The notes under the pieces were generated by a model. The model was given only the letters and a program-made list of their open reading frames with translations, made no database searches and was not told where the DNA came from. A program made the position numbers and the translations under genes. Shown here piece after piece: positions 1 to 15,228 of a DNA stretch of 37,186 nucleotides. Within the stretch, counting starts at the first letter, position 1. Each line of letters opens with the position of its first letter. The stretch comes from a virus: positions 1 to 37,186 of the IMG/VR virus record IMGVR_UViG_3300036944_000021; one strand, 5' to 3'.

Positions 1-1
1 T

Positions 2-709: not shown

Positions 710-715
710 TGAACT

Positions 716-742
716 GGGCCCCTTCGGGGGCCCTTTCTTTTT
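716..742 (+). terminator. Intrinsic terminator after capsid gene
   Basis: A perfect 7-bp GC-only stem (GGGCCCC / GGGGCCC) closes a TTCG tetraloop and is followed by TTTCTTTTT. It lies 7 nt past the capsid stop codon. The structure should end or attenuate capsid transcripts before the next gene. Confidence 0.9.
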
Positions 743-763
743 CCCTAATTTCTGGAGATTCTC

Positions 764-1096: not shown

Positions 1097-1112
1097 TCGG
1101 TGGCACAATAAA

Positions 1113-1134
1113 GGGGCTCTTCGGAGCCCCTTTT
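1113..1134 (+). terminator. Intrinsic terminator after decoration-like gene
   Basis: A perfect 7-bp stem GGGGCTC / GAGCCCC with a TTCG loop is followed by TTTTACATTTT. It has the same architecture as the terminator after the capsid gene but a different stem sequence, so the two are not copies of each other. Confidence 0.9.
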
Positions 1135-1153
1135 ACATTTTACGGAGTATTGA

Positions 1154-1456
1154 ATGAACGTCCATGACCTTCTCGACCGCCTTGGCGGTGAAATCCTGTC
1201 CAACAAAGCCCGCGCTATGGTTGGCGGCAAGATCGTTATCCTTGCCCGCTTGACTGGCGATGACTGGGTGTACACCGATGAGGGCCAAGAGTTGGCCAAT
1301 GCGCATTCCAATGCAGCTGCTGAAGAGACTGCAGCCAAGCCTAAACGCGCCAAGAAGGCTGCCGAACCGGTGGCTGAGACTGAACCCACCACAGAAGCCC
1401 CTACCACTGAAGCTCCTGCTGCGGTAGAATCGGGCGATGTAGCGCCTGAACTGTGA
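1154..1456 (+). CDS. Unknown protein with acidic/Ala-rich tail
   Basis: This 100-residue protein has two parts. The first 50 or so residues look folded (MNVHDLLDRLGGEIL, then VGGKIVILARL and DDWVYTDEGQELA). From about residue 52 it is low complexity, rich in Ala, Glu, Thr and Pro, with a short basic patch KPKRAKKA near residues 62-69. ACGGAG lies 7 nt before the ATG. It sits between the decoration-like gene and the first adaptor gene, so a virion assembly or head-completion role is possible. I do not recognise the family. Confidence 0.6.
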   Translation: MNVHDLLDRLGGEILSNKARAMVGGKIVILARLTGDDWVYTDEGQELANAHSNAAAEETAAKPKRAKKAAEPVAETEPTTEAPTTEAPAAVESGDVAPEL

Positions 1457-1464
1457 GGTAGACC

Positions 1465-2142
1465 ATGGCCACCGTAAAAGTTGTTGACCTGATTGTAAGA
1501 GCACAGACGCTCTTGCAGGATGAAGACTCTGTGCGGTGGACCGTTGCCGAGCTGCAGTACTGGCTCAATGATGCGTACAAGGAAACGATTGGGCTGCGCC
1601 CAGACGCCAATACGCAGACAGCCGAGTACACCTGCGTGGCTGGCGCACGTCAGGTTCTTACAGGCAGCTTCCCCAACGCCATCCGGCTTGTTGAGGTTGT
1701 GCGCAACCTCGCTACTACATCGAACAAATACAGCGTCAGGTTAACTGATCGCAAGAGCCTCGACACACAGCGACGCTCATGGTACGCGGACACACCAAGC
1801 GCCAGCGTCGAGCTTTACATGTTTGACCCGCGTACCCCAAAACAGTTTCTGGTGTACCCACCAGCTACAACAGCAGCACGTCTTGAAGTGATTTACTCCG
1901 TGCTGCCAGCAGAACACACCCTGTCTGACGCCCAGCTGTTGAACCCCACTACGTCAGAGACAATTCGCATTGACGACATTTTTGCCACTGCGTTGTTTGA
2001 CTACATGCTGTACCGTGCCTTCAGCAAGGACGCTGAGCAGACAGCCATGACGCAGCGGGCCGTGGCTCACTACCAAGCCTTCCAGAACGCTCTGGGCATT
2101 AAACAACAAGTTGACGCTGCCTCGCAGCCGGGAGTTGCGTAA
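1465..2142 (+). CDS. Phage head-tail adaptor-like protein (first)
   Basis: This 225-residue protein opens with a helical segment containing VRWTVAELQYWLNDAYKETI and LRPDA (residues about 24-48), a pattern I associate with phage adaptor proteins (DUF6682-type) that dock under the portal. The middle is strand-rich and the end is helical (IFATALFDYMLYRAFSKDAEQ), as in connector proteins that form a ring below the portal. The stop overlaps the next start as TAATG, implying translational coupling with the next gene, which also looks adaptor-like. The adaptor call is a family resemblance; the structural position is inferred. Confidence 0.65.
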   Translation: MATVKVVDLIVRAQTLLQDEDSVRWTVAELQYWLNDAYKETIGLRPDANTQTAEYTCVAGARQVLTGSFPNAIRLVEVVRNLATTSNKYSVRLTDRKSLDTQRRSWYADTPSASVELYMFDPRTPKQFLVYPPATTAARLEVIYSVLPAEHTLSDAQLLNPTTSETIRIDDIFATALFDYMLYRAFSKDAEQTAMTQRAVAHYQAFQNALGIKQQVDAASQPGVA

Positions 2143-2750
2143 TGGCAAAAACATGGGACGACTTTCTTCCTCTGCTGTCGCCACACCTCAGCGGATGCCC
2201 AAACGAGACGATGAAGGAGTATCTTGGCATTGTCGCCTCGGACTTCTTCGCCCGTTCCTATCTGTGGCGCGAGCAGATTGACGCGATCTACGTGGCTTCT
2301 AACGTCACAGAGTACGACTTGGACTCTGATGCTGTGGTTGAGGACGTCATCTCTGTCGTGTACAACGAAGCCCCGCTGACGCGTTCTGACCTGCGCTTGA
2401 TCGGCGCTGAGAAGTTGTCTGAGGTCGGCGAGCCCCGGGAGTACTGGGTTCAGGCCGATCAGAGCATCCGCATTTTTCCCACACCTGAAGAGCGTACAAC
2501 GCTCAAGGTATACGCCGTTCTCAAGCCTAGCCGCTCTGGTACAGGTGTAGAGGATTGGATTTACGAGACTTGGGCCGACACGCTTGTGAGTGGTGTTGTC
2601 GCACGATTGGCCATGATTCCCAACAAAGAGTGGACCGATGTGGCTATGGCTACTTCCCAGAAGGCTACCTACGAACGGGCGATCACGACTGCCCGGGTAC
2701 GTGATTTTCGCGGCGTCAGATTGATGGTGCGCCAGCGCCCAGCAGCATAA
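2142..2750 (+). CDS. Second head-tail connector/adaptor-like protein
   Basis: This 202-residue protein starts inside the previous stop (TAATG). It has an N-terminal helical region (WDDFLPLLSPHLSGCPNETM), a central strand-rich domain with EYDLDSDAVVEDVISVVYN, and a C-terminal helix ending in basic RVRDFRGVRLMVRQRP. The order helix, beta barrel-like centre, helix matches the phage adaptor or tail-tubular-A-like proteins of podoviruses. Size and tight coupling to the upstream adaptor-like gene suggest the two form successive rings between portal and tail. No enzymatic motif is present. The exact family is not recognised with confidence. Confidence 0.55.
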   Translation: MAKTWDDFLPLLSPHLSGCPNETMKEYLGIVASDFFARSYLWREQIDAIYVASNVTEYDLDSDAVVEDVISVVYNEAPLTRSDLRLIGAEKLSEVGEPREYWVQADQSIRIFPTPEERTTLKVYAVLKPSRSGTGVEDWIYETWADTLVSGVVARLAMIPNKEWTDVAMATSQKATYERAITTARVRDFRGVRLMVRQRPAA

Positions 2751-2759
2751 GGAACGACG

Positions 2760-3092
2760 ATGACTGAAAAGATCAAACTGGTGCAAGGTGATACACGCCC
2801 TGCACTCGTCTGCACCATCACAGACGACACAACCAATGCACCTATTGACATCACGGGGGCCACGGTTGTCTTAAAATTTCGTGCTGCCGGTGCGACTGCG
2901 TTGACTGCGACCGTAACTGGAGCTATCACCAATGGCGCTGCTGGGCAAGTTGCTTTCTACCCTGCATCAGCACCAGAGATGCTTCAAGGCGCTCCGGGCG
3001 ACTACGAGGGTGAAATCGAGATCACGTTTGCCGACAGTCAGATTCAGACCGTGTATGACACGCTGCGCTTCAAGGTGCGTGAGGACTTCTGA
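2760..3092 (+). CDS. BppU-like N-terminal (Ig-like) baseplate/tail protein
   Basis: This 110-residue beta protein begins IKLVQGDTRPALVCTITD and continues with PIDITGATVVLKFRAAG, the hallmark opening of the upper-baseplate (BppU) N-terminal domain family seen in many phages. It ends EITFADSQIQTVYDTLRFKV, a final strand pair. The domain stands alone here, without a long C-terminal extension. GGAACGACG upstream is a usable ribosome site, and the stop TGA overlaps the next gene's ATG (TGATG). The likely role is a structural adaptor in the tail or fibre attachment region; this is inferred from the family. Confidence 0.6.
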   Translation: MTEKIKLVQGDTRPALVCTITDDTTNAPIDITGATVVLKFRAAGATALTATVTGAITNGAAGQVAFYPASAPEMLQGAPGDYEGEIEITFADSQIQTVYDTLRFKVREDF

Positions 3093-3793
3093 TGGCCATT
3101 CGTGTCACCGGCAACACCACAACGTCTTCTCTGCGTGCTGTAAAGCCGCGAGTAAGCGTAAGCTATGTGGACGCCAGAGCAACACAAAGTGCGGTAATTC
3201 CAGCAGCTGAGGTTGCCTATATTCTGCTGAACGCAGACGCCTTCTTAGATACCACAGGGCGGTTCCGGTACGTACCGGAGATCGTTGTTGTAAGTGACGC
3301 TGTCGCGCTTGCCGTATCCAAACAATTTGCAGACGCTGTAAGTGTTGCGACGACAGTCGATGTCTTGACGCTAGAAACCGTCAAAGCGCTGCAAGATTCT
3401 GTCAGCTTTACTGAAGTGTTCGTTGCCACGCTGGTGTTTATCCGCACATTTGCTGACTCTGTGTCGTTCACTGAAGCCACCACTTTCGCAGTTGACAAGC
3501 CACTTGCAGACGCAGTGACGTTCAGCGAGACGACAACACGAGCGTTCATAAAGTCTTTAGTTGATGGCGTGGCCATGAACGACTCGTTCGACTTGGGTGA
3601 TGGGGCGGTTTTTGCCTTTACCAAGGGTGTGTCCAACGTTGTGTCTGTCCAAGACGCAAAGATTCTTACCCCGCAAAAGGGCGTTAGCGATATGATTGGA
3701 GCCTCAGACGCGGGCTCCTTGATTTCGCAAGGCTACTGCGACTTCAGTTACTTCGCCGAAGATTATGTCGGCGCGTCCAGAACCTTTTCATAG
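3092..3793 (+). CDS. Virion protein with repeated 18-24 residue units
   Basis: This 233-residue protein, translationally coupled to the preceding gene, has roughly seven degenerate repeats between residues about 66 and 214. Each unit carries a core like FADSVSFTE or LADAVTFSE followed by a hydrophobic stretch and a basic residue. The pattern (A/V)-D-(A/S)-V-(S/T)-F-(T/S)-E recurs every 18-24 residues and predicts a regular beta structure, such as a fibre shaft. The N-terminal 65 residues are non-repetitive and end with GRFRYVPEI. No known enzyme motif is seen. Context (tail gene block) suggests a tail or baseplate appendage; the function is inferred. Confidence 0.6.
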   Translation: MAIRVTGNTTTSSLRAVKPRVSVSYVDARATQSAVIPAAEVAYILLNADAFLDTTGRFRYVPEIVVVSDAVALAVSKQFADAVSVATTVDVLTLETVKALQDSVSFTEVFVATLVFIRTFADSVSFTEATTFAVDKPLADAVTFSETTTRAFIKSLVDGVAMNDSFDLGDGAVFAFTKGVSNVVSVQDAKILTPQKGVSDMIGASDAGSLISQGYCDFSYFAEDYVGASRTFS

Positions 3794-3802
3794 GAGCTTT
3801 TC

Positions 3803-4240
3803 ATGCTTAACGATCAGATCAAAATCACCGGCCAAGTGCGCATCGTCGTAACCGGCGCAGACGGCCAAATCAAAGACCAGCGCGAAATCAAAAACTTGGT
3901 TGTCACCACTGGCAAGCAGTTCATCGCGGCTCGCATGGTTGGAACGCCTACTGAGATGAGTCACATGGCCCTTGGCGCGTCTAACACTGCCGCAGCTATT
4001 GGAGACACTGCGCTTGGTTCTGAGCTCGGGCGTGTGGCTTTGGCTTCAGACACTGCGTCTGGCGCGGTCGTGACGTACACTGCATCTTTTCCAGCTGGCA
4101 CAGCCACTGGCGCGGTTGTCGAAGCTGGTGTGTTCAACGCCTCCAGCTCCGGCACAATGCTGTGCCGCACAGTATTCGCCGTTGTCAACAAGGGTGTAGA
4201 TGATGCCATGAGCGTTACTTGGGCCATCACGGTCTCATAA
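3803..4240 (+). CDS. Tail/baseplate-associated beta-rich protein
   Basis: This 145-residue protein follows an AGGAG ribosome site. It begins IKITGQVRIVVTGADGQIKDQ and REIKNLVVTTGKQFIAARM, then has MSHMALGASNTAAAIGDTALGSELGR and a C-terminal strand pair (AVVNKGVDDAMSVTWAITVS). This layout, including the 'hMALG.....A...TxLGsElgR' pattern, is common in small phage tail or fibre-associated proteins. It is probably a structural component of the distal tail. No catalytic residues are apparent, and the assignment rests on remembered resemblance. Confidence 0.55.
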   Translation: MLNDQIKITGQVRIVVTGADGQIKDQREIKNLVVTTGKQFIAARMVGTPTEMSHMALGASNTAAAIGDTALGSELGRVALASDTASGAVVTYTASFPAGTATGAVVEAGVFNASSSGTMLCRTVFAVVNKGVDDAMSVTWAITVS

Positions 4241-4274
4241 TTTACGCACTGGCGTTTAGGCCAAAGGGGGAAGT

Positions 4275-4592
4275 ATGAGTACAGTTGTGTTGCGAAGTGT
4301 CAAGGGTTCGCCCTTGACCAACAATGAGGTCGACGCTAACTTTAGCAACCTTAACTCTGACAAGTACCAAGATGGTGGTGCCCTTGGCACCCCTGCGTCT
4401 GGCACAGTCACCAACCTCACTGGCACTGCATCCATCAACATCAACGGAACAGTCGGTGCTACGACGCCCAATACTGGCGCATTCACGACGCTGACGGCAA
4501 ACAGTGGCAACACAGTGCTGGACGCAAGCAACTACACAACATACGCTGACCCTGCTGGTACGGCGGTGGCGATGGCAATCGCATTGGGGTAA
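4275..4592 (+). CDS. Short fibre-type protein (fibre N-terminal module only)
   Basis: This 105-residue protein opens with LRSVKGSPLTNNEVDANFSNLNSDKYQ, a module I know as the very N-terminus of long phage tail fibres, where it is normally followed by hundreds of shaft residues. Here it continues through ALGTPASGTVTNLTGTASI and TTPNTGAFTTLTANSG and then stops after AVAMAIALG. A GGGGGAAG ribosome site precedes the ATG. It may be a genuine short adaptor or the relic of a longer fibre whose distal part has been exchanged. It is separated by only 3 nt from the next gene. Confidence 0.55.
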   Translation: MSTVVLRSVKGSPLTNNEVDANFSNLNSDKYQDGGALGTPASGTVTNLTGTASININGTVGATTPNTGAFTTLTANSGNTVLDASNYTTYADPAGTAVAMAIALG

Positions 4593-4595
4593 ATC

Positions 4596-4922
4596 ATGGC
4601 AAACACCTTCACCAGATATTTGAACAAGAGCGTAGGCACATCGGCTGCCACGGTTGTCACGGTTGGGTCCTCCACGCAGACCACCATCATCGGCCTGTCT
4701 TTGGCCAACACCACTACTTCACCGATCACAGTCAGTGCATTCATCACGGCGTCTGCTGTGGACTACTACCTCATCAAGGATGCCACAGTCCCTGTGGGAG
4801 GCACGCTGGTGGTTGTCGGTGGGGACCAAAAAACCGTGCTGGTGACGAACGATGTTCTGAAGGTCATCTCCTCCACAGCCGCCTCGGCAGACGTCATCAC
4901 ATCTGTCCTCAACATCACGTAA
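4596..4922 (+). CDS. Small beta-rich tail/virion protein
   Basis: This 108-residue protein is dominated by Thr, Ser, Val and Ala in alternating strand patterns (TTIIGLSLANTTTSPITVSAF; GGTLVVVGGDQKTVLVTNDVLKVIS), with no helices of note and no signal peptide. It sits between a fibre N-terminal-type protein and an S74 fibre. It looks like a compact beta sandwich, probably a virion surface or tail-tip component. I do not recognise a named family. Confidence 0.55.
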   Translation: MANTFTRYLNKSVGTSAATVVTVGSSTQTTIIGLSLANTTTSPITVSAFITASAVDYYLIKDATVPVGGTLVVVGGDQKTVLVTNDVLKVISSTAASADVITSVLNIT

Positions 4923-4931
4923 GGGTAGAGC

Positions 4932-6089
4932 ATGTCTTACGTAGGCAACACCAACACCACGCAGGCGTTCACGCCAGCCATCGATTACTTCAGCGGCAAC
5001 GGTTCCACGGTCGCGTTTACGCTATCCCGCCCTGTCGCCTCGGTTGCGCAGGTGCAGGTGGTGGTCAACAACGTGGCTCAGAACCCCACTGATGCGTACA
5101 CGGTCCTAAACAACACGATCACATTCACAGGCGCACCGTCGTCTGGCACGAACAACATCTACGTGTACTACACCAGCCCAATCACTCAGGTGATTCAGCC
5201 GGGTCAGGGCACTGTGACATCGAGCAGCTTTGGCCCCATCACGGACTTCACTACGACAGGCAACACCATTCTCGGTAACGCTTCCACCGACACACTGAAC
5301 GTGGGTAATGGCGGCTTGGTTAAAGATGCCAACGGTAACGTGGGTATTGGGACGAGTTCGCCTTATTCTGGTTCAAGAGCAGATATTCAAATTGCCATAA
5401 GTACTGCAAACTATGCGTTTCAGATTCGCACTTTTGATGCGGGAACAGTTGACGGTTCTACCACTGCAAAAGTCTTTCGCGCAGTAAACAGCGGCGGTGG
5501 TAACTGGGCCAATGCTCAATACGATGCTTGGGCGCACATCTGGACAAGAGCGGGAACTGAGATTGGTCGCTTTGACTCCAGCGGTACTTTGCTTATTGGC
5601 CGAACCATCGCAGTGTCTGGTCAAACTCGCTTGGGGCTTGATGCAACAGCTTCCATCGCTGGCTTTGTGAGTGAAACAGGGCCAACAACCACGGTAATCC
5701 ACGGGCGTTTTTACAACGGCAACGGCAACGTAGGAAATATCAGCACCAACGGCAGTGCGACCACATACAGCACTTCTTCCGACTACCGCTTAAAACATGA
5801 CATCGCCCCCATGACTAGCGCGTTGGTCCGTGTCGCTGCGCTCAAGCCTGTCACCTACAAGTGGAACGCTGACGAATCTGTTGGTGAAGGTTTTATTGCC
5901 CATGAGTTGCAAGCCGTTGTGCCTGACGCCGTTGTGGGGGAAAAAGACGCAGTAGACGCTGAAGGTAATCCTGTCTACCAAGGCATCGACACCAGCTTCT
6001 TGGTTGCCACACTGACCGCAGCCATCCAAGAACAGCAAGCCATCATCACCGCTTTGACAGCCCGAGTCATAGCACTGGAGAACAAATAA
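4932..6089 (+). CDS. Tail fibre/spike with C-terminal S74 intramolecular chaperone
   Basis: This 385-residue fibre has three regions. Residues 1-80 form a module with FSGNGSTVAFTLSRPVASV and NNIYVYYTSP that recurs at the start of the fibre at 7341. The central part is a shaft/receptor region with NLNVGNGG-type strands. A peptidase-S74 domain starts at SSDYRLKHDI (residues 282-291). Ser282/283 and Lys288 match the Ser-Lys dyad that lets these trimeric chaperones cut themselves off after folding the fibre. GEGFIAHELQAVVPDAV and a C-terminal coiled coil (AAIQEQQAIITALTARVIALENK region, about residues 363-385) complete the domain. The stop overlaps the next start (TAATG). S74 identity is firm; receptor specificity is unknown. 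Confidence 0.85.
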   Translation: MSYVGNTNTTQAFTPAIDYFSGNGSTVAFTLSRPVASVAQVQVVVNNVAQNPTDAYTVLNNTITFTGAPSSGTNNIYVYYTSPITQVIQPGQGTVTSSSFGPITDFTTTGNTILGNASTDTLNVGNGGLVKDANGNVGIGTSSPYSGSRADIQIAISTANYAFQIRTFDAGTVDGSTTAKVFRAVNSGGGNWANAQYDAWAHIWTRAGTEIGRFDSSGTLLIGRTIAVSGQTRLGLDATASIAGFVSETGPTTTVIHGRFYNGNGNVGNISTNGSATTYSTSSDYRLKHDIAPMTSALVRVAALKPVTYKWNADESVGEGFIAHELQAVVPDAVVGEKDAVDAEGNPVYQGIDTSFLVATLTAAIQEQQAIITALTARVIALENK

Positions 6090-7177
6090 TGGCACTCAGT
6101 AAAATTGACACCTCATCCATCTCGGCGCTGGGGTACGGCTTTAAGAACCGCATCATCAACGGTGACATGCGGATTGACCAGCGTAATGCTGGTGCAGAGA
6201 TTAACCCTGCTGTTTCTGGAAGCTATTACCTTGACCGTTGGATTGTTCAATCATCGCAAACAGGAAAGTTCAAGATTGGCCAAAGTGCTGGAGCAGTTAC
6301 GCCCCCGTCCGGGTTTACAAAATACTTAGGCTGCACTTCTTTATCGGCTTACTCCGTTGTGGCTGCGGATGCGTTTAACGTGGGTCAACGACTTGAAGGT
6401 CTTAACGTATCTGACTTGGCTTGGGGCACAGCTTCAGCCGCCACTGTTAGATTGTCTTTCTGGGTTTACTCAAGTTTGACTGGTACTTTTGGTGGATCGG
6501 TTCAAAACAGCGCCAGCGATAGGTCTTATCCGTTTTCCTACACAGTCTCTGCTGCCAACACATGGGAGTTGGAGACAATTACCATTCCCGGCGACACAAC
6601 AGGAACTTGGTTGACAGATAGCGGTGTTGGCATCCGTTTGTTTTTCAGCCTTGGAACCGGGTCAACTCAAAGCGGTACGGCAGGTGCATGGGCCGCAGGA
6701 AACTTTCGATCTGTTACAGGCGCAACATCTGTTGTCGGCACAAACGGAGCCACCTTCTACATCACCGGTGTTCAACTTGAAGCTGGCACCACAGCCACTT
6801 CGTTTGACCGCAGGGATTACGGGAGTGAGTTGATGATGTGCCAGAGGTACCTGCCTACTATTATTGCAACCTCTAATGGCGCATACTATTGTATGGGCTA
6901 CGCCCAAACCGCAACGCAAGCCAATCTTTTTTACCCGTTCAAAGTCACAACAAGAGTGCCCCCAACTGGCGTTACGGTAAATAGCGCATCTTCTTTCGGG
7001 GCAACAACTCAGGCTTCTGGGGGAGCGGGTACTTCTATTGGTTTTACCAACGCGTCATTGGATGGCTGCAATTTTTTCTTAAATACTTCTGGTTCAACAT
7101 ACTCAGCCGGTCTGCCTCTTTTTCTCTATTCAACTAACTCCACGGGCATTATTCAATTTACGGGATGTGAGTTATGA
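6089..7177 (+). CDS. Tail fibre, NRIINGDM family, paralogue 1
   Basis: This 362-residue fibre has a conserved N-terminal anchor (FKNRIINGDMRIDQRNAG, residues about 18-35, then a YYLDRW motif), a galactose-binding/carbohydrate-module-like beta sandwich (about 45-230, with VRLSFWVYSSLTGTFGGS), the junction VQLEAGTTATSFDRRDYG, and CQRY near residue 253. Beyond CQRY the roughly 110 C-terminal residues share nothing obvious with the other paralogues except the terminal -EL. The same plan recurs at 8535 and 9809. DNA encoding the distal part is richer in A/T than the anchor. It probably binds host surface glycans, with the variable tip setting specificity (inference). Its stop overlaps the partner gene's start (ATGA). 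Confidence 0.75.
   Translation: MALSKIDTSSISALGYGFKNRIINGDMRIDQRNAGAEINPAVSGSYYLDRWIVQSSQTGKFKIGQSAGAVTPPSGFTKYLGCTSLSAYSVVAADAFNVGQRLEGLNVSDLAWGTASAATVRLSFWVYSSLTGTFGGSVQNSASDRSYPFSYTVSAANTWELETITIPGDTTGTWLTDSGVGIRLFFSLGTGSTQSGTAGAWAAGNFRSVTGATSVVGTNGATFYITGVQLEAGTTATSFDRRDYGSELMMCQRYLPTIIATSNGAYYCMGYAQTATQANLFYPFKVTTRVPPTGVTVNSASSFGATTQASGGAGTSIGFTNASLDGCNFFLNTSGSTYSAGLPLFLYSTNSTGIIQFTGCEL
6146..6192 (+). repeat. 47-nt direct repeat copy 1 (fibre anchor)
   Basis: This segment, encoding NRIINGDMRIDQRNAG, is identical over 47 nt to 8589-8635. A third, diverged copy begins near 9871 and keeps the first 17 nt. Identity at the DNA level at synonymous positions suggests recent duplication or ongoing recombination between fibre genes. 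Confidence 0.9.
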
Positions 7178-7344
7178 CAACACCAGTTTGGAAACTTTTG
7201 CCGCTCACTTTTATGCAACAAACTCAAGTTGTTTGGCGTGAATGGCCCGATGGCCGCCAAGAATCTTGTTTGGTGACTGCTGTTGAATACCTACAATGGC
7301 TGGACGAGGGCAACACGCCTGAGCCAGCAGAGGAGACTCCATGA
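7174..7344 (+). CDS. Small fibre-partner protein, 56 aa (mosaic)
   Basis: This short gene starts within the stop of the upstream fibre (ATGA) and ends within the start of the next (ATGA). Its product begins MTTPVWKLLPLTFMQQ and ends VEYLQWLDEGNTPEPAEETP. The C-terminal YxxWLDEGNTPxPA signature is shared with the small proteins at 9636 and 10693, while its first 35 residues differ. Proteins with this ending accompany fibre genes in many phages and are candidates for fibre-assembly factors or tail-tip parts; the role is inferred from position. DNA encoding WLDEGNTP is part of a 25-nt repeat shared with the 9636 gene. Confidence 0.7.
   Translation: MTTPVWKLLPLTFMQQTQVVWREWPDGRQESCLVTAVEYLQWLDEGNTPEPAEETP
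7295..7319 (+). repeat. 25-nt direct repeat copy 1 (WLDEGNTP)
   Basis: Identical over 25 nt to 9757-9781. Both copies encode the KWLDEGNTP/QWLDEGNTP end of a small fibre-partner gene, just ahead of the next fibre gene, and so mark the boundary between cassettes. Confidence 0.9.
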
Positions 7345-8381
7345 GCTATATCGGCGCAGAGCCAACCACAGCAGCTTTTGTAACGGACACGTTCTCGGGT
7401 AACGGCTCAACGGTTGCGTTCACCATGCAGGTGGCTCCGGCCACGGCCACATCCGTCATTGTCGCCATCACAGGCGTACTGCAAGACCCATCAACCTACT
7501 CTGTGTCGGGCACCACCCTGACGTTCAGCCAAGCTCCGCCGACAGGAACAAGCAACATCTCGGTGCGCTATATGGGCATCCCTGCCAGCGGCGTGACGAC
7601 AACGGCCTACCGCACTGTGACCGACTTCACAGCGACCGCAGGCCAGACCACATTCAGCGTGCCGTCATACACGGTGGGCTACATCGACGTCTACCGCAAC
7701 GGCGTGCGCTTGGCCGCTGCCGACTACACGGCCACAAACGGAACCACGGTTGTTTTAGTCAACGCCGCCACTTTGGGCGACTCTGTGGTGACCGAGAGCT
7801 TCTACGTCAGCTCGGTGCTGAACGCCATCTCTGCCACGGCGGGCGCGGTGAACACCACGTACTTAGCCGACAACTCGGTGACTACAGCAAAGATTGCACC
7901 GGGCGCGGTGGTGCAGGCTGACTTGGCTACAAACGTAGCCGGTACCGGCCCTGCGTTTAGTGCTTACTTTTCTGGCAACCCCGGTTTATCAGCAAACACG
8001 GCAACAAAAATTGCTTATAACACCGAGGTTTTTGATACGAACAGCAACTTTGATACTACAAATAATAGATTTACGCCAACCGTGGCTGGATATTATCTGG
8101 TTACGGTGATGGCTAAAATTTATACTGGAACAAGCCAAGCATCTTTTGCCAAAACTATTTACATATACAAAAATGGCTCTAATTACAAAGAGGCGCAGTT
8201 TGATGGATATTTTGCGTATTCAAACAATAATCACACTATGTCTATAACGTCGTTGGTTTATTGCAATGGAAGTACAGATTATATTGAAGGCTATGCTCTT
8301 ATTGGCGTTGCTGGAAACTTAATAGGTGGCGCTACTACTGGCAATACATTTGAAGCACATTTGGCACGGAGCGCAACATGA
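7341..8381 (+). CDS. Tail fibre with C-terminal C1q/TNF-like domain
   Basis: This 346-residue fibre begins with the FSGNGSTVAFTMQV / SNISVRYMG module also found in the S74 fibre at 4932. A second strand-rich segment (RTVTDFTATAGQTTFSV, residues about 94-160) and a short shaft (NSVTTAKIAPGAVVQADLA) lead to a C-terminal domain (about 205-346). The pattern there, AFSAYFSG then YNTEVFDTNSNFD and NNRFTPTVAGYYLVTV, is the C1q-like jelly-roll signature (trimeric, receptor-binding). DNA of this last domain (about 7960-8370) is visibly A/T-rich compared with the GC-rich front, suggesting a swapped-in module. Start and stop both overlap neighbours (ATGA). Confidence 0.75.
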   Translation: MSYIGAEPTTAAFVTDTFSGNGSTVAFTMQVAPATATSVIVAITGVLQDPSTYSVSGTTLTFSQAPPTGTSNISVRYMGIPASGVTTTAYRTVTDFTATAGQTTFSVPSYTVGYIDVYRNGVRLAAADYTATNGTTVVLVNAATLGDSVVTESFYVSSVLNAISATAGAVNTTYLADNSVTTAKIAPGAVVQADLATNVAGTGPAFSAYFSGNPGLSANTATKIAYNTEVFDTNSNFDTTNNRFTPTVAGYYLVTVMAKIYTGTSQASFAKTIYIYKNGSNYKEAQFDGYFAYSNNNHTMSITSLVYCNGSTDYIEGYALIGVAGNLIGGATTGNTFEAHLARSAT

Positions 8382-8542
8382 CCTTGTACGAAAAAATCAA
8401 AGCCCTGTACCCCGAACTCACAGACCGTGACTTCTTAACCGTCGTCCGATTGCAAAACGACAGCGATGGCCGTGGCGACTACATTGCTGCGTGGGATCAC
8501 CCCACACTGGCACGACCAACACAGGAGCAGTTAAATGACTAA
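8378..8542 (+). CDS. XkdW-like small fibre-associated protein, 54 aa
   Basis: Start overlaps the stop of the C1q fibre (ATGA) and the end overlaps the next fibre by 8 nt. The product begins MTLYEKIKALYPELTDRDF and continues LQNDSDGRGDYIAAWDHPTLARPTQEQL, the pattern of XkdW-type phage proteins encoded next to tail-fibre genes. It has no signal peptide or membrane segment. It differs from the WLDEGNTP-type partners in the other cassettes, so this cassette carries a different class of partner. The function is unknown; a role in fibre assembly is only suggested by position. Confidence 0.7.
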   Translation: MTLYEKIKALYPELTDRDFLTVVRLQNDSDGRGDYIAAWDHPTLARPTQEQLND

Positions 8543-9635
8543 CGCAGTCAATATCGCGCAAAGCGGATCAACCAACGTCTCATGGCGCAACCGCATCATC
8601 AACGGTGACATGCGGATTGACCAGCGTAATGCTGGCGCGAGTGTGACCTTCACAAACCAATACTTGGTTGATCGCTGGGCTGGGGTTGAAGATACTGATG
8701 GGGCCATGACAGCTCAACAAGTGGCTGATGCACCGACTGGGTTTGTTAACTCGCTTAAATTTACGACCACTACCGCTGATGCAAGTTTGGCTGCTACACA
8801 GTACGCATCTACTTCTCAGTTCATTGAGGGGTACAACACATCTGATTTGGCATGGGGCAGTGCATCCGCTCAAACAATCACGATTTCTTTCTGGGTCAAA
8901 TCTAGCTTGACCGGAACATTTGGCGGCTCTTTAAGAAACAACGGATACAACAGGTCTTACCCGTTTACTTACGCAATCAGTGCGGCAAACACTTGGGAGC
9001 AAAAAACTGTAACGATTGCGGGGGATACCAGCGGTACATGGGCAACTACCACAGACGCCGGGATTAGACTTTCTTTCGGTCTTGGTGTTGGCTCGACCTA
9101 TAGTGGTACTGCCGGGTCTTGGTCTTCAAATAATTACATCACAAGCACCGGAGCAACCTCTGTCATTGGGACGCTTAACGCTACTTGGCAGATCACAGGC
9201 GTACAGCTTGAAGCTGGCAGCGTTGCTTCCCCGTTTGAGCGCAGGGACTACGGGCGTGAGTTTGCGTTGTGCCAGCGGTACTACGAAACCAGCTACCCTC
9301 CCGGATACCCCGCAGGATATAACTTTGGCGAGCAATACCCTTGGGGCACAAGCAAGCCCAACGCAGTAAACTTTATTGCAAGCGATGACCAGACCACTTC
9401 CGTAAGTTTGAGATTTGTTGTTCAGAAGCGAGCATCGCCAACAGTGGTTATTTATTCCCCAAACAACGGCTCATCTGGGTTTGCATGGGTATATAAAGGT
9501 ACTGGCGGGGCAGGCAACGTATCTGCAGGCGTAACTTACACATCTGAAAGTTTGTGGAACATTAGTCAATCGCTTTCCGCCATAAACCAAGCAAACGAAT
9601 CTTATTTTCACTTCACCTCAAGTGCGGAGTTATAA
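8535..9635 (+). CDS. Tail fibre, NRIINGDM family, paralogue 2
   Basis: This 366-residue paralogue of the fibre at 6089 has the anchor WRNRIINGDMRIDQRNAG (residues about 17-34), YLVDRW, the beta-sandwich motif ITISFWVKSSLTGTFGGS, VQLEAGSVASPFERRDYG and CQRYYE. The tip after CQRYYE is unlike the other two and includes an aromatic/Pro-rich stretch (SYPPGYPAGYNFGEQYPW); it ends YFHFTSSAEL. AGGAG lies 8 nt upstream of the ATG. The first anchor DNA is identical to paralogue 1 over 47 nt. A likely glycan or receptor-binding appendage, by resemblance. Confidence 0.75.
   Translation: MTNAVNIAQSGSTNVSWRNRIINGDMRIDQRNAGASVTFTNQYLVDRWAGVEDTDGAMTAQQVADAPTGFVNSLKFTTTTADASLAATQYASTSQFIEGYNTSDLAWGSASAQTITISFWVKSSLTGTFGGSLRNNGYNRSYPFTYAISAANTWEQKTVTIAGDTSGTWATTTDAGIRLSFGLGVGSTYSGTAGSWSSNNYITSTGATSVIGTLNATWQITGVQLEAGSVASPFERRDYGREFALCQRYYETSYPPGYPAGYNFGEQYPWGTSKPNAVNFIASDDQTTSVSLRFVVQKRASPTVVIYSPNNGSSGFAWVYKGTGGAGNVSAGVTYTSESLWNISQSLSAINQANESYFHFTSSAEL
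8589..8635 (+). repeat. 47-nt direct repeat copy 2 (fibre anchor)
   Basis: Identical partner of 6146-6192, lying in the anchor-encoding part of fibre paralogue 2. The distance between copies (2443 nt) spans one full fibre, the C1q fibre and two small partner genes, so recombination between them would delete or duplicate those genes. Confidence 0.9.
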
Positions 9636-9809
9636 ATGTACCAACTGCTGGCCAACCCAAGACAAAAATCCGAGCTGCTTTTGGCGATCAAGCGCCTATC
9701 CGACAACGCCTTCATCCCATTTGACCCGGCCAACACAGACTACCAGCAGTACATGAAATGGCTGGACGAGGGCAACACGCCACTGGCTGCTGACGAGGAG
9801 AACACATAA
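9636..9809 (+). CDS. Small fibre-partner protein, 57 aa
   Basis: ATG follows the stop of the upstream fibre directly (TAAATG) and the stop overlaps the next fibre start (TAATG). The product contains IKRLSDNAFIPFDPANTDY and KWLDEGNTPLAADEENT. It is clearly homologous to the protein at 10693 (MYQL start, IKR..DNAFIP.DP.N.DY, WL.EGNTPL). It is probably a dedicated partner or assembly factor of the preceding fibre; this is inferred from strict pairing. It has no membrane segment and no catalytic motif. Confidence 0.7.
   Translation: MYQLLANPRQKSELLLAIKRLSDNAFIPFDPANTDYQQYMKWLDEGNTPLAADEENT
9757..9781 (+). repeat. 25-nt direct repeat copy 2 (WLDEGNTP)
   Basis: Identical to 7295-7319; see that entry. 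Together with the anchor repeats it brackets exchangeable fibre-tip DNA. Confidence 0.9.
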
Positions 9810-10690
9810 TGGCACTGACAACTGTCGATCAGGGTCTGCTTGGTCCGTACGCCCAGTACACGGGGTTCAAAAACCGCATCATCAACGGCGGGATGGACAT
9901 CTGGCAGCGTGGTACAAGCACGACTACGACTGGAAATACTTACCTAGCAGATCGATGGGTGTCTGCGTTTGCCACTGGCGGGACTGTTAGCCAAGAGACA
10001 TCAAGCATCCCGACAGGCAGCCGCTATGCGTGGAAGTTTGTTGCAAGCGCATCGAATGCGTTTATGCAAATGGGCCAGCAAATTGAGTTCATGAACTGCT
10101 TGGATTTGCAGAACACAACTGTGACCATTTCGTTTATGGCGCGTTCAGTTAATTCAAACGCTGGCTCTACTGCACTAACTGTTCGCACCAGAACGATTGC
10201 TGGTGTTGATGGGGCTTGTATTTTTGCAGGCAGCAACAGCGACACTGCTGTGACGTTGACAACCACTTGGACACGTTACACAGTGACCAGAACATTGCCA
10301 TCCACTTTCGGTTCTCTTTCGCTTGAGTTTATCCTTGGCTCCCATGTTAGCGGCGATGGCTTTATGCTCTCACAAGTCCAACTGGAAGCCGGTACTGTTG
10401 CGTCCACATTTGACCGCAGGGATTACGGGCGTGAATTGATGATGTGCCAGCGGTATTACGAAGTTGGGTCTCTAAAGACTTATATTGGTGGTGCATCAGC
10501 TTCGGGTATTTCTATTGCCACGATTTTTAAAGTTACAAAACGATCAGGCCCAACAATGAGCTATGGGACGGCAGGCGCTCGTGGGTATCTTCCGGGTTCA
10601 ACTGAGTGGGCAGAAAATGAGTCGTTTGGTGTATCTAGGGGTTCAAGCAATGAGCTTGCTTGTACTTGGTCGGCAGCAGCGGAGCTTTAA
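9809..10690 (+). CDS. Tail fibre, NRIINGGM family, paralogue 3
   Basis: This 293-residue fibre is the most diverged of the three. Its anchor reads FKNRIINGGMDIWQRGTST (residues about 19-37), then TYLADRW, a beta-sandwich (VTISFMARSVNSNAGS), VQLEAGTVASTFDRRDYG and CQRYYEVG. The distal 80 residues differ from the other two and end in AAAEL, in parallel with SSAEL and GCEL of the paralogues. It is coupled to the preceding small gene by TAATG and has GAGGAG upstream. The beta-sandwich resembles carbohydrate-binding modules, so glycan recognition is a reasonable inference. Confidence 0.75.
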   Translation: MALTTVDQGLLGPYAQYTGFKNRIINGGMDIWQRGTSTTTTGNTYLADRWVSAFATGGTVSQETSSIPTGSRYAWKFVASASNAFMQMGQQIEFMNCLDLQNTTVTISFMARSVNSNAGSTALTVRTRTIAGVDGACIFAGSNSDTAVTLTTTWTRYTVTRTLPSTFGSLSLEFILGSHVSGDGFMLSQVQLEAGTVASTFDRRDYGRELMMCQRYYEVGSLKTYIGGASASGISIATIFKVTKRSGPTMSYGTAGARGYLPGSTEWAENESFGVSRGSSNELACTWSAAAEL

Positions 10691-10692
10691 TC

Positions 10693-10860
10693 ATGTATCA
10701 ACTTCAACCTGATCAATACGGCCAGCCAGCCGCCTGCATCAAGCGCATCGCTGACAACGCCTTCATCCCGATGGACCCATCCAACAAAGACTACGTTGAG
10801 TACCTAGCGTGGTTGGAAGAAGGCAACACGCCCCTTCCACCTGACACACAACCCGAGTAA
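10693..10860 (+). CDS. Small fibre-partner protein, 55 aa
   Basis: The ATG at 10693 is chosen over an in-frame upstream start because it gives an N-terminus (MYQLQPDQYG) matching the homologue at 9636 and lies just 2 nt after the fibre stop. The product has IKRIADNAFIPMDPSNKDY and WLEEGNTPLPPDTQPE. This is the last partner gene of the fibre array. A fibre assembly or attachment role is inferred only from pairing with a fibre gene. Confidence 0.7.
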   Translation: MYQLQPDQYGQPAACIKRIADNAFIPMDPSNKDYVEYLAWLEEGNTPLPPDTQPE

Positions 10861-10893
10861 AATTAGCCAAGTTCTTTTCAGCCGAGTCGTGAC

Positions 10894-11118
10894 ATGGACA
10901 ACCAACAACTTTTCAACCTCGTCGTATCCGTAGCTGGCTTTCTGGCGATCTATGTCATCAACAACCTGACGCGCCAGATTCAGCGGCTGGAAGACAAGGT
11001 TAACGAGCTACCCCACACCTACGTTGCCAAGGATGACTACAGGTCTGACATCAGTGAGATCAAGTCCATCCTGAAGCAGATTTTTGACAAGCTGGACGGC
11101 AAGGCCGACAAGTCATGA
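10894..11118 (+). CDS. Membrane-anchored coiled-coil protein
   Basis: This 74-residue protein has one N-terminal hydrophobic segment (residues about 6-24, LFNLVVSVAGFLAIYVINN) followed by a heptad-rich helix (IQRLEDKVNELP, then ISEIKSILKQIFDKLDGK). It opens the membrane/lysis cassette. The topology resembles small phage proteins that modulate holins or spanins. The end overlaps the next start (ATGA). The role is inferred from topology and place; I do not recognise a specific family. Confidence 0.6.
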   Translation: MDNQQLFNLVVSVAGFLAIYVINNLTRQIQRLEDKVNELPHTYVAKDDYRSDISEIKSILKQIFDKLDGKADKS

Positions 11119-11207
11119 AAGACTTCGCCGAGGCTTTTGTCGCGGCGATTTTAATCATGGCCATCGTTATCTGGACAGCAAAGATAGTAGTCGAGGTACT
11201 GAAGTAA
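11115..11207 (+). CDS. 30-aa single-pass membrane peptide
   Basis: This tiny gene starts inside the upstream stop (ATGA) and ends inside the downstream start (TAATG), so it is locked in a chain of translationally coupled genes. The product is MKDFAEAFVAAILIMAIVIW followed by TAKIVVEVLK, with a single hydrophobic helix of about 18 residues and one charged group on each side. Its position among lysis genes suggests a holin accessory or pinholin-like peptide. Existence rests on coupling and composition; there is no strong Shine-Dalgarno of its own. Confidence 0.5.
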   Translation: MKDFAEAFVAAILIMAIVIWTAKIVVEVLK

Positions 11208-11698
11208 TGGACCCACTAACCGCGTTAGCGGCGGTAAGCGCTGCAGTCAATCTCGTCAAGAAGGCCGTCAAGACCGTCGATGACGTGCGCAGCCTCGGCC
11301 CGGTGTTGGGTAAATACTTTGATGCCAAGGCTGATGCTGTCAAGGTGCTTGAAGATGCCAACAAGGGTGGCTTTGCTGGCTCCAACATGGGTAAGGCTGT
11401 TGAACTGGAACTGGCTATCGAGAACGCCCGTCAGTTTGAAGAACAGGTCAAGCAGTTGTTCTTTCCTAACAACATGGATGTGTGGGAGAAGATTGTTAGT
11501 CGCCGCAAGCAAATGGACGAAGACGACAAGGCACAGCGCAGAAGGGCTGCTGATGCTGCTGTCCAATTGCGTAAGAAGCGCAAGGCTGCATTTGAATTGT
11601 GGACCGCCATTGCATTGGCATTGTTTGTCTTTGTCCTCCTGATGTGGGTTGGCCTTGAGATCGTCTACTACTGCCGGGAAGTCAAATGTGGAAACTAA
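11207..11698 (+). CDS. Tail-anchored inner-membrane-type protein, 163 aa
   Basis: The ATG at 11207 overlaps the upstream TAA (TAATG). It is preferred to an in-frame start further upstream, which would run through the 30-aa gene. The protein is helical: MDPLTALAAVSAAVNLVKKAVK, a long amphipathic middle with KQLFFPNNMDVWEK, a basic coiled-coil segment (RRKQMDEDDKAQRRRAAD, about 100-117), and a C-terminal membrane helix (about 129-152, LWTAIALALFVFVLLMWVGL) followed by a short tail with two Cys. It may be the inner-membrane partner of the lipoprotein encoded next, with which it overlaps by 13 nt. The function is inferred from topology and neighbours. Confidence 0.6.
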   Translation: MDPLTALAAVSAAVNLVKKAVKTVDDVRSLGPVLGKYFDAKADAVKVLEDANKGGFAGSNMGKAVELELAIENARQFEEQVKQLFFPNNMDVWEKIVSRRKQMDEDDKAQRRRAADAAVQLRKKRKAAFELWTAIALALFVFVLLMWVGLEIVYYCREVKCGN

Positions 11699-13251: not shown

Positions 13252-14226
13252 ATGGCACAACAGTTTGCAAACAATGCTAGGGCGCTATTGGTGGCCGGGA
13301 TCAGCGATACCGATACATCCATCGTCATTGAGTCATCCAAGGCTGACTTGTTCCCTGTAGCCAACGTAGGCTCAGGCTCTTTGCCGTCCGCAAGCAGCTG
13401 GTTTAAGGTAACGCTGCAGAACTCTTCAGGAGCTGTCGAAATCGTGGCTGTGCGCACCCGCACAGCTGGCTCCGGGGTTCTTTCCAATGTGATCCGTGGG
13501 TATGACGGCACAACCCCCCTGAACTTTGTGTCTGGCACAGTCGTTGGGTTGCGTATTACAGCAAATGACGTTCAGACAGCGCTTGATATGCCAAGCCAGA
13601 ACAATACATTCAGCGGTAACAACACATTCAGCGGTAGCAACACATTCAGCGGCAGCAACACATTCTCGGGCGCACTTAGCGGCGCAGGTCTCATAAACCT
13701 CTTGTACCCCGTTGGCTCGGTGTACATCAACGCCACGAATAACACGAACCCGGGCACTTTGTTCGGGGTCGGCACTTGGACAGCTTTCGGTGCAGGTCGC
13801 GTTCCAGTTGGTTTTGACTCGGGCAACTCGCTGTTTAACTCTGCCGAAGAGACTGGCGGTAGCTACGATGCAACACTGGTTTCACATACACACACGGGTA
13901 CAACGGGTAGTGAGAATCAGAATCACACCCACGGTGTTAGCGGGAGTACAGATACCCAAGGTAGTCACCAACACACTATTCCGCACAACATTGATAGCGC
14001 CACGGCAGGTGACTATATTTCAGGTAACGACGGCCCCAACAACGTAGGGGGTAATGCGTCTCCCACCGATGTTGCTGGCGCACACAGCCATTCATTCTCG
14101 GTAACTTCTGGTGGCATATCCAACAATCACCAGCACGGTTTTACCACTGCTTCCAGCGGCTCTAGCGCAACCAACGCCAACATTCAACCGTACATCACCG
14201 TGTTTATGTGGAAGCGCACTGCGTAA
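13252..14226 (+). CDS. Collar-type tail fibre with gp10-like C-terminal domain, paralogue 1
   Basis: This 324-residue fibre has an N-terminal module (residues 1-110: MAQQFANNARALLVAGI, WFKVTLQNSS, VAVRTRTAGSG, VIRGYDGTTPL), a hexapeptide shaft of four NTFSG units (about 118-141), and a C-terminal domain starting YPVGSVYINATNNTNPGTLFG and GTWTAFGAGRVPVGFD, the pattern of the T4 baseplate Gp10 C-terminal/collar domain. A His-rich insertion follows with several HxH pairs (SHTHTG, NHTHG, HQHT, HSHS, HQHG), typical of metal-binding fibre tips. It ends YITVFMWKRTA. A probable receptor-binding protein, by domain resemblance. Confidence 0.75.
   Translation: MAQQFANNARALLVAGISDTDTSIVIESSKADLFPVANVGSGSLPSASSWFKVTLQNSSGAVEIVAVRTRTAGSGVLSNVIRGYDGTTPLNFVSGTVVGLRITANDVQTALDMPSQNNTFSGNNTFSGSNTFSGSNTFSGALSGAGLINLLYPVGSVYINATNNTNPGTLFGVGTWTAFGAGRVPVGFDSGNSLFNSAEETGGSYDATLVSHTHTGTTGSENQNHTHGVSGSTDTQGSHQHTIPHNIDSATAGDYISGNDGPNNVGGNASPTDVAGAHSHSFSVTSGGISNNHQHGFTTASSGSSATNANIQPYITVFMWKRTA
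13603..13674 (+). repeat. Four 18-nt tandem repeats encoding NTFSGx
   Basis: Four consecutive 18-nt units encode NTFSGN, NTFSGS, NTFSGS and NTFSGA. The central copies are nearly identical at DNA level, so slippage could lengthen or shorten the fibre shaft in 6-residue steps without a frameshift. Confidence 0.9.
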
Positions 14227-14235: not shown

Positions 14236-15228
14236 ATGGCACAACAGTTTACAAACAACTCCCGCGCACTGCTGACCGCCGGTATTACGAACTCGGCTAC
14301 CACCATTGTTATTGAGTCTACAAAAGCTGATTTATTTCCTGTAGCCAACGTAGGCACAGGCTCACTTCCATCTGCAAATAACTGGTTCAAGGTCACGCTG
14401 CAGGACTCCAGTGGTAACGTAGAAATTGTGGCTGTGCGCACCCGCACAGCGGGCTCAGGTATTCTGGCCAACGTAATTCGTGGGTACGATGGCACTACGC
14501 CATTGGCGTTTGTTTCAGGTACTGTTGCAGGCCTGCGCATCACCGCTGAAGATGTGCAGACTGCGCTCGACTTGCCTAACCAAAACAGCGTCTTCACCGG
14601 GGACAACTCGTTTTCCGGGACCAACGAGTTCACAGGTACACAGACATTTTCCGGGCTAACTACGTTTAGCGATGTTACTGAATTTAGTGATAGCGTCACG
14701 TTCAACAGCAGCCCAGAGGTTCCTACGCCTACATTTGGCGACTCCAGCGACAAGGCCGCAAGTACATCTTTTGTGCAGGCCGCTCTACGGGCTGTATACC
14801 CAGTAGGTTCCATCTACATCAACGCTGGCAGTAACACCAGCCCAGCAACCCTGCTGGGTTTCGGTACTTGGACAGCTTTCGGTGCAGGTCGAGTGATGGT
14901 CGGCTTGAATGGCAGCGACTCACTGTTTGATTCTTTGGAAGAGACAGGAGGTAGCAAAGATGCGATTGTTGTAAGTCATACGCACGGGGTTACCGACCCG
15001 GGCCACACCCACACACCCGGCCCCGGTGTCAACTACGTTACGGACCCGTTTGCTGGCGATGGTACGGTTGATAGTTCACGGGTTACTGGGCCAGACGAGA
15101 AGAACCTGAGCAAAAACGCGTCCTCGGGAAGCACCACAGGTGTCACAGTTAACTCAACAGGCTCCAGCGGCACTAACGCCAACCTCCAGCCGTACATCAC
15201 CGTGGCGATGTGGAAGCGCACTGCGTAA
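14236..15228 (+). CDS. Collar-type tail fibre with gp10-like C-terminal domain, paralogue 2
   Basis: This 330-residue tandem paralogue of the upstream fibre has the same N-terminal module (MAQQFTNNSRALLTAGI, VRTRTAGSGILANVIRGYDG). The shaft has seven diverged hexapeptides (SVFTGD, NSFSGT, NEFTGT, QTFSGL, TTFSDV, TEFSDS, VTFNSS) at 14587-14712, and a spacer with DSSDKAASTSFVQAA. The C-terminal domain has YPVGSIYINAGSNTSPATLLG, WTAFGAGRVMVG, a shorter His region (SHTHGVTDPGHTHT) and the MWKRTA end. A GGAAC ribosome site follows the previous stop. Two divergent tips suggest two receptors or a heteromeric tip; this is inference. Confidence 0.75.
   Translation: MAQQFTNNSRALLTAGITNSATTIVIESTKADLFPVANVGTGSLPSANNWFKVTLQDSSGNVEIVAVRTRTAGSGILANVIRGYDGTTPLAFVSGTVAGLRITAEDVQTALDLPNQNSVFTGDNSFSGTNEFTGTQTFSGLTTFSDVTEFSDSVTFNSSPEVPTPTFGDSSDKAASTSFVQAALRAVYPVGSIYINAGSNTSPATLLGFGTWTAFGAGRVMVGLNGSDSLFDSLEETGGSKDAIVVSHTHGVTDPGHTHTPGPGVNYVTDPFAGDGTVDSSRVTGPDEKNLSKNASSGSTTGVTVNSTGSSGTNANLQPYITVAMWKRTA

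Follow-up and report, generated by a model that had tools for sequence, protein, structure and literature searches.

In a stretch of viral DNA of 37,186 nucleotides (nt), IMG/VR virus record IMGVR_UViG_3300036944_000021, which we will call the window, three fibre genes (F1, F3 and F4) are each followed by a small partner gene (p1, p3 and p4). It is quite probable that they belong to a receptor-binding island in which F1-p1, F3-p3 and F4-p4 are fibres built of exchangeable modules, traded between phages at fixed joints. The unit of this family would be a beta-sandwich body resembling a carbohydrate-binding module (CBM), a short helix ending in the residues CQRY, and a fast-varying tip of about 70-120 amino acids (aa) with a common frame. 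The joints would be the NRIING block at the start of the body, which holds a 47-nt repeat, the body-tip block ending in CQRY, the 3' end of the fibre gene and the 3' end of the partner gene. Exchange at the joints is strongly supported by the comparisons given below. It would take place by homologous recombination during co-infection, with the joints serving as short homologies; this, we infer, is the simplest mechanism and the best supported. The partner would fold the tip, and the outcome would be an altered bound surface structure and hence, in part, an altered host range.

A preliminary description, made from the letters of the window alone, had pointed to four fibre open reading frames (ORFs), F1 at 6089-7177, F2 at 7341-8381, F3 at 8535-9635 and F4 at 9809-10690, each followed by an ORF of 56, 54, 57 and 55 aa, respectively. 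All of these are present (p1, 7174..7344; p2, 8378..8542; p3, 9636..9809; p4, 10693..10860). Like the other features located below between 3803 and 11118, they lie on the plus strand, and fibre and partner meet, in order, with a 4-nt overlap, a 4-nt overlap, direct adjacency and a 2-nt gap. What did not survive is the idea of four cassettes of one kind. F1, F3 and F4 are type-B fibres matching the profile of phrog_4492 (E 1e-44, 4.8e-54 and 1.2e-45), and all matches fall within profile positions 781-1095 of 1096, so the family's long N-terminal portion is missing from these genes. F2 and the gene at 4932..6089, a type-A fibre with a Peptidase_S74 chaperone-type C-terminus, both belong to phrog_18673, and their N-termini are 44% identical over 109 aa; F2 also gives a weak C1q match under the cut-off. 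The junction VQLEAG..RRDYG..CQRY, ascribed earlier to all four genes, is kept in F1, F3 and F4 and absent from F2, which has neither the NRIING block nor CQRY nor a tip of the CQRY type. The partner p2 belongs to the XkdW family (PF09636, 31.7 bits against a curated cut-off of 24.6), matches, at 92% identity across 52 aa, an ORF of L116 (records and loci used for comparison carry L numbers), and shows no relation to the other partners detectable by profile comparison; p1, p3 and p4 match phrog_20370, p1 weakly (E 6e-4). As F2 differs in family, junction and partner, two cassette types are interleaved here, three plus one.

Within the three type-B fibres, joint 1 occupies 6146..6195 in F1 (block I, NRIINGDMRIDQRNAG), 8589..8638 in F3 and 9872..9921 in F4, whose body is of a second subtype. 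Joint 2, the body-tip junction with CQRY at its end, occupies 6761..6850, 9192..9281 and 10367..10456, and the tips follow at 6851..7174, 9282..9632 and 10457..10687, the last being 77 aa long.

Relatives were collected as 327 loci from scans with F3, F1 and F4 (best 80 matches each) and with the window genes at 15238 and 2142. With the window included, a body profile found 303 ORFs in 242 of 328 sources; leaving out 11 that run off their contig, two without the profile start and two without the profile end gives 288 ORFs, 233 of them unique. CQRY is present in 269 of the 288. Already in the tblastn search with F3, where CQRY occupies residues 246-249, 32 of the best 80 matches end at residue 249-256 (48 run further), and among 40 of 93 phage records listed, 20 matches end at residue 250-254. 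Tip identity is practically independent of body identity (n=216; Mantel r 0.02, equalled or exceeded in 108 of 500 permutations), and the median tip identity stays at 28-36% in each body bin under 95%. In the 38 pairs whose bodies are at least 80% identical, tips are about 100% identical in seven, 40-60% in six and under 40% in 25; with bodies at least 95% identical the tips are bimodal, seven at about 100% and six under 40%. The preliminary description had proposed to look for mosaicism breaking at CQRY in related phages, and that check came out strongly positive, cultured phages included. Both the mosaicism and the positions of the joints are direct observations.

The joints can be located from both sides. 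Body DNA that is 77-99% identical is shared by the members of 25 tip-swap pairs, which form 15 independent groups, and this likeness stops between -1 and +21 nt from CQRY. Downstream of the swapped tip, homology is back at the fibre 3' end in six pairs, inside the partner in six and past the partner in three. The shared tract starts within 10 nt of joint 1 in seven of the 15 groups; among these seven, one leaves only 72 nt of room and another, a cluster of six, varies in where the tract starts, and in a further one of the 15 the start is hidden by a contig end. The reverse case, tips at least 60% identical on bodies less than 80% identical, is found in 12 pairs, with breaks at -94 to -35 nt in seven and near -450 nt in four. 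The twelfth pair, L048/L189, aligns as one BLAST piece. Counted per 100 columns, most of its 6.6 kb is 94-100% identical, with lower values near +1470 (down to 65%) and near +1900 (88-90%), and with 53-73% from about -600 to -30; as the alignment reads, the body is replaced between joints 1 and 2 inside a stretch about 99% identical. In the other 11 shared-tip pairs, eight tracts end within 30 nt of the partner stop, one at -66 and two near-duplicates at +145, so the travelling unit is mostly joint 2 plus tip plus partner. As to co-adaptation of partner and tip, partner identity follows the body (r 0.44) more closely than the tip (r 0.07; equalled or exceeded in 1 of 500 permutations), and a division of the relatives into body subtypes may be the cause.

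The tips had been called unrelated and richer in A and T. The lower GC content stands, in all three window genes and in 180 of the 233 unique genes (window included). The lack of relation does not: in 85 aligned sequences the information content is high along the body, drops past CQRY and recovers only at a mid-tip motif, FpVxMRxxPT, and at a C-terminal xEL, which is AEL, SEL, CEL or IEL in 223 of the 233 unique genes. Judged by this alignment, the tips all belong to a single, diverged domain that contains hypervariable segments. A hypervariable C-terminal domain on a conserved frame is what a diversity-generating retroelement, or some other targeted mutagenesis, would vary. We give this almost no credence, as reverse transcriptase PF00078 has no match in the record (possibly incomplete), the control search being positive in 4 of 14 genomes, and as the tips vary in length (69-119 aa in the first 85).

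It could also be supposed that the tip simply evolves very fast, by point mutations and indels under diversifying selection, that nothing is exchanged, and that the joints are just the structurally constrained parts. The common descent of the tips, with FpVxMRxxPT and xEL conserved, fits this, and so do the six of 38 close pairs with intermediate tip identity (40-60%) and a distant version of the fibre in Pseudomonas putida phages (8 of 26 fetched), where tips are 74-100% identical without a break. Fast drift would not put the same tip on different bodies, as in the 12 pairs above and in the relatives of the F3 tip described next, nor make tips bimodal on nearly identical bodies, nor replace a body and keep the tip, as happened in L048/L189 and in two cultured phages (7B11-B/S-B28, below). 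We therefore consider it unlikely as the explanation of the family. Uniform divergence of body and tip, which would have spoken against exchange, is not seen in the family, although the eight P. putida isolates, with their distant version, show no swap.

The window's own modules occur elsewhere in other combinations. The F4 body and that of L251 are 84% identical at nt level over a tract that opens 9 nt ahead of joint 1 and closes 1 nt short of the CQRY end; the tips of the two are 29% identical and their partners 51%. A scan with the F3 tip only returned four contigs, L331-L334, with tips 69, 69, 65 and 52% identical and partners 68, 67, 60 and 49% identical, on bodies that share 54, 60, 40 and 28% identity with F3, that of L331 being nearer to F1 (63%). 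The F3 tip and p3 thus go together on other bodies. L332 and L333 gave no match to the window's internal virion protein; these records are fragments and cannot show its absence.

Most of the pairs are IMG/VR contigs, and short conserved blocks are just where assembly of short reads could mis-join bodies and tips that come from different phages. The 25 tip-swap and 12 shared-tip pairs give 37 shared tracts, of which seven are 95-99% identical, and L048/L189 is about 99% identical around the body, as such an artefact would allow. The other 30 tracts are 71-93% identical and therefore too diverged for a mis-join, and seven combinations of body and tip recur in different contigs with bodies 98-100% and tips 100% identical. 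Named phage isolates were also compared, so as to exclude chimeras of this kind, and they swap at the same joints. The Synechococcus phages S-H34 and S-N03 are 98% identical in the N-terminal part, 88% in the body and 21% in the tip; their DNA is 92.6% identical up to 8 nt past CQRY and 96.4% identical again from 19 nt before the stop. In the Synechococcus phages 7B11-B and S-B28 the N-terminal part is 98%, the tip 97%, the partner 97% and the body 53% identical. Here the two diverge some 57-60 nt past the start of joint 1 and agree again from 107 nt before the CQRY end, and by this comparison the body module is swapped between the block containing the 47-nt repeat and CQRY. The Methylophilales phages MEP401 and MEP402 give a less sharp swap: they differ across the fibre (tips 32%) and are 95% identical again from the last part of the partner. 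Altogether an assembly artefact seems highly improbable to us as the source of the mosaicism. Methylophilales phage Venkman also carries fibre-partner cassettes. As a separate observation, in the Synechococcus phages S-H34, MA01 and S-N03 one fibre-like gene after another has a short repeat (about 72-75%) close to its start (L344 3425-3567 and 4206-5371; same places in L345 and L346), which suggests further joints in these arrays.

The 47-nt exact repeat noticed earlier is real and beyond chance. It consists of the initial 47 nt of joint 1 in F1 and recurs exactly at 8589-8635 in F3, two direct copies 2443 nt apart at equivalent positions of these two window genes, and none of 1000 synonymous-codon shuffles, which keep both proteins and codon usage, reaches 47 nt (mean 13, maximum 32). 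The exact 47-mer is found again in L205 and L226. F1 and F3 use the same codon at 14 of 16 shared residues in the 17-residue block around the repeat, at 13 of 20 in the CQRY joint and at 31 of 90 in the remaining body. In 99 dereplicated F3-like bodies the normalised sharing of synonymous codons is 0.30 in block I, 0.23 in joint 2 (residues 205-232) and 0.074 in mid-body (p 9e-6 and 4e-4, respectively). The excess is kept where the body begins at least 60 residues into the protein, so it is not an effect of the gene start. Conservation at codon level at the first two joints is thus observed directly; on these counts block I and the CQRY joint are conserved beyond the protein level, and the 47-nt repeat is a local case of a family-wide joint. 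An observation in its own right concerns the type-A fibre at 4932-6089: within it, at about 6003-6051, 49-50 nt of this S74-ended gene are 88% identical in L110, L109 and L111 despite a replaced island, and this stretch is possibly another conserved joint.

An exact direct repeat at equivalent sites of F1 and F3 might also suggest a programmed switch within one genome, with the array serving to store cassettes and the expressed tip being changed by inversion or by recombination of one 47-nt repeat with the other. In keeping with this, copies of block I from one locus differ less than copies from different loci (median 3 vs 7 mismatches, 6 vs 3354 pairs, p=0.006), although this likeness may be gene conversion or shared codon use. 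Every cassette lies on one strand with an intact start, the only inverted pair listed for 5500-11500 is a weak one (21 nt, 76%), resolvase (PF00239) and tyrosine recombinase/integrase (PF00589) have no match in the record, and deletion between the repeats would presumably lose genes irreversibly. Moreover, of 56 pairs of bodies from the same locus, not one is a pair of mutual nearest relatives. For these reasons we consider a switch very unlikely. By the same count, tandem duplication is not supported as the source of arrays, and exchange is seen between phages and not among the cassettes of one genome. The earlier proposal that tips and whole cassettes are exchanged by recombination thus holds between phages, at CQRY and often with tip and partner as one unit, and is not supported among the cassettes of one genome. 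At least two CQRY-type fibres occur in 34 of 203 non-redundant sources that carry them, and such arrays would be filled by import from other phages.

A number of points weigh against exchange at fixed joints, or against parts of it. The mosaicism is read from sequence comparison, and no recombination event was directly observed. Three families searched by name, and part of the ORFs compared with Pfam and PHROGs, did not reveal the acting recombinase in a record that is possibly incomplete; there is a PD-(D/E)XK exonuclease-like gene at 36449-37102. Scans with the F1 tip only and the F4 tip only found no relative. In 10 of the 25 tip-swap pairs homology does not resume downstream, so only the 5' crossover is located in those pairs. 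The four shared-tip pairs with breaks near -450 nt break inside the body, without codon excess there; not every boundary is therefore a conserved joint. The exact 25-nt repeat at the partner 3' end (7295..7319 in p1 and 9757..9781 in p3) is present as described earlier and is only marginally beyond chance (13 of 1000 shuffles reach 25 nt). We had expected this block to show codon conservation like the other joints, and mostly it did not: across the family it has little codon excess, and its conservation at DNA level is slight. In S-H34 and S-N03 the gene after the fibre encodes 241 or 214 aa and is not a mini-partner, and the lack of any break or swap in the eight P. putida phages must be counted here too.

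The step from tip to host range is weakened by the isolates on record. S-H34 and S-N03, with tips 21% identical, have the same recorded host, MW02; MEP401 and MEP402, with tips 32% identical, share FZCC0133; and 7B11-B and S-B28, with tips 97% identical, were isolated on different Synechococcus strains, WH 7803 and KSHK05. Isolation hosts on record do not simply follow tips, and the tip alone therefore does not set the isolation host. Since other fibres, and ranges wider than the isolation host, may be involved, these records are neither proof nor disproof.

What might the modules do? The AlphaFold2 model of F3 (mean predicted local distance difference test score 81) has a confident beta-sandwich at residues 17-230 and a helix at 239-247 on the CQRY joint, followed by the tip. 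Its residues 18-228 match CBM4-2 best (2y6j; Z 14.6, root mean square deviation 2.5, 158 aligned), and the body also resembles domains of phage spikes and fibres, namely CBA120 TSP4 (5w6h, Z 12.5), K2-2 and Kp7 gp52. Close viral models are proteins of uncultured phages, of S-B28 and of Prochlorococcus phage P-TIM68. By model, the bodies of F1, F3 and F4 would have a fold of the CBM4/9/22 type, and they may bind glycans. No CBM profile reaches its curated cut-off (F4 against CBM_4_9 gives 16.2 bits with a cut-off of 25.9; F1 and F3 give no match), a PDB sequence search with the fibre profile returns nothing at E 0.1, and NCBIfam returns nothing for ten proteins at E 0.01.

For the partners we suggest that p1, p3 and p4 are probably stripped-down tail-fibre assembly chaperones, or mini-chaperones. 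Of 222 unique fibres, 216 are followed by an ORF (35-260 aa) that starts between -15 and +60 nt of the fibre stop, 207 of these starts lying between -3 and +4; this count uses a permissive ORF rule and only fibres with enough downstream DNA. In L036 a longer relative of the partners has the same N-terminal motif fused to PF16778, a tail assembly chaperone domain (E 1.3e-15), and the partner in 7B11-B is annotated as a tail assembly chaperone. Speaking against a chaperone role, p1, p3 and p4 themselves have no Pfam match and hence no PF16778, which is found in none of the 48 members of partner set A2, these three included. The partner model consists of three strands and a helix and has no PDB match at E 0.001 by Foldseek; a PDB sequence search with the partner gave four weak matches only, at E 0.59 or worse, and no convincing solved chain.

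The island in its entirety can be replaced too, between conserved flanking genes. Over the initial 3.2 kb, L110 and L112 agree with the window at about 90% of nt, and from there to 4236 at 75-85%; identity is back from 10847 in L110 (87%) and from 10893 in L112 (78%). Between these borders they hold different fibre-like genes, the sole match being one 49-nt piece in L110. L121 is similar in that its island is replaced, and is more distant upstream (70-90%). The left border gene (3803..4240, phrog_5417) is 94-95% identical at aa level in L110 and L112, and the right border gene (10894..11118) is 92-95% identical in L110, L112 and L121. Both borders were found in 17 distinct records (25 rows, window included), where gene 12066 was taken as the right border if gene 10894 was lacking; the interval between them measures 866-8059 nt, and CQRY fibres occur in four of the 17. 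Absence or replacement in close relatives is the criterion of a metaviromic host-recognition island, and L110 and L112 show such replacement. The right crossover of the island seems to lie inside the 3' end of its last gene: the final codons there (..QPE stop, 10847-10860) are found again at the ends of last genes that are otherwise different in L110 and L121, and related in L116. A contig of another record, L108, is 100% identical to window positions 1-6510 and ends within the F1 body.

The remainder of the record gives some idea of the phage. A podovirus is suggested by genes of the 37,186-base contig for a major head protein (phrog_267), an internal virion protein (phrog_511) and an endolysin (phrog_181). 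On the chromosome of Polynucleobacter sp. UK-Kesae-W10, three cassettes lie in a collinear region between homologues of the left border gene at 3803 and of the internal virion protein, hinting at a Burkholderiales-type host. That region (L337 1-12780) is prophage-like and holds homologues of the window genes at 3803, 4275, 4596, 4932 and 15238. Directly before the internal virion protein gene of the window stands a second tandem pair of fibre-like genes, apparent paralogues (13252-14226, phrog_8469; 14236-15228, phrog_24267), and relatives, L088 for example, give matches to them at two or more places. Elsewhere, the first 755 aa of a 2499-aa ORF at 20634-28133 have no PHROG match (E 0.001), and the first 789 aa have no tblastn match among phage records.

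Modular, exchangeable receptor proteins of phages are already well known, and what we describe is a clear new example of them. From one such system the present family differs in its homologous tips, in a partner gene that frequently goes along with the tip, and in the swapping of the CBM-like body itself between two joints; moreover, independence of tip and body is measured here, over 216 relatives. In T-even phages, short conserved motifs between hypervariable segments of gp37 and gp38 are used to exchange adhesin specificity, and we liken them to our joints by description only. A literature search, with linker and junction wording included, found no published account of this exact joint system.

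The comparisons that follow draw on parts of the papers cited. In marine phages, host-recognition genes lie in metaviromic islands replaced between near-identical genomes, and the genes named there include fibre, carbohydrate-binding, C1q and XkdW genes (PMC3909814). In cryoconite phages, flexible host-recognition variants shuffle independently by module (PMC7468147). As far as these parts go, both studies work at the level of island or gene (domain), by read recruitment and reconstruction (PMC3909814, PMC7468147), whereas here exchange units and joints are placed inside the gene, with codon-level conservation at two joints. Exchange of Ackermannviridae tailspikes through conserved 5' ends gave infectious phages with a new host (PMC11414711). 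As in our case, several receptor-binding genes stand together there and conserved segments are proposed as homology; the conserved 5' part of those genes, however, serves a branched spike complex (PMC11414711), while the joints here flank a CBM-like body and a tip.

Fibre genes adjoining their chaperone genes are described for gp24-gp25 of Pam3 (PMC9608196) and for the Alteromonas phages A5/V22 (PMC10579305). Residues 1-55 of Pam3 gp25 form a small strand-plus-helix domain that binds the distal part of the fibre (PMC9608196), and by that description the window partners resemble it in size and make-up. As they comprise 54-57 aa in total, they are without the trimerising C-terminal domain, unlike Pam3 gp25 and the A5/V22 chaperones. 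The XkdW-like protein of the Bacillus phages Sam46 and Sam112 is encoded by a small gene beside tail genes, with a suggested role in tail assembly or adsorption (PMC8190038). p2 shares its family, the function being unproven there too, and p2 stands in the type-A cassette and not in the CQRY family.

The exact exchange units of modular receptor-binding genes, and the DNA that permits their exchange, have seldom been located. Because this family is large and short, occurs in cultured phages (Synechococcus, Methylophilales and others) and has joints that are sharp both ways, the rate and the rules of tip and body exchange could be measured from existing metagenomes, and the mini-partner offers a candidate minimal chaperone for testing. 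One further suggestion is more tentative, and we rather doubt it than believe it: the joints could be a shared recombination standard, DNA kept alike across phage families so that bodies, tips and mini-chaperones can be traded in a common pool, with the tip-partner unit as a mobile cassette of half a kilobase. If the conservation of codons at the joints is upheld by recombination itself, it would be the signature of a gene pool common to phage families. Exchange of this kind is a known way in which phages are thought to keep pace with changing bacterial surfaces.

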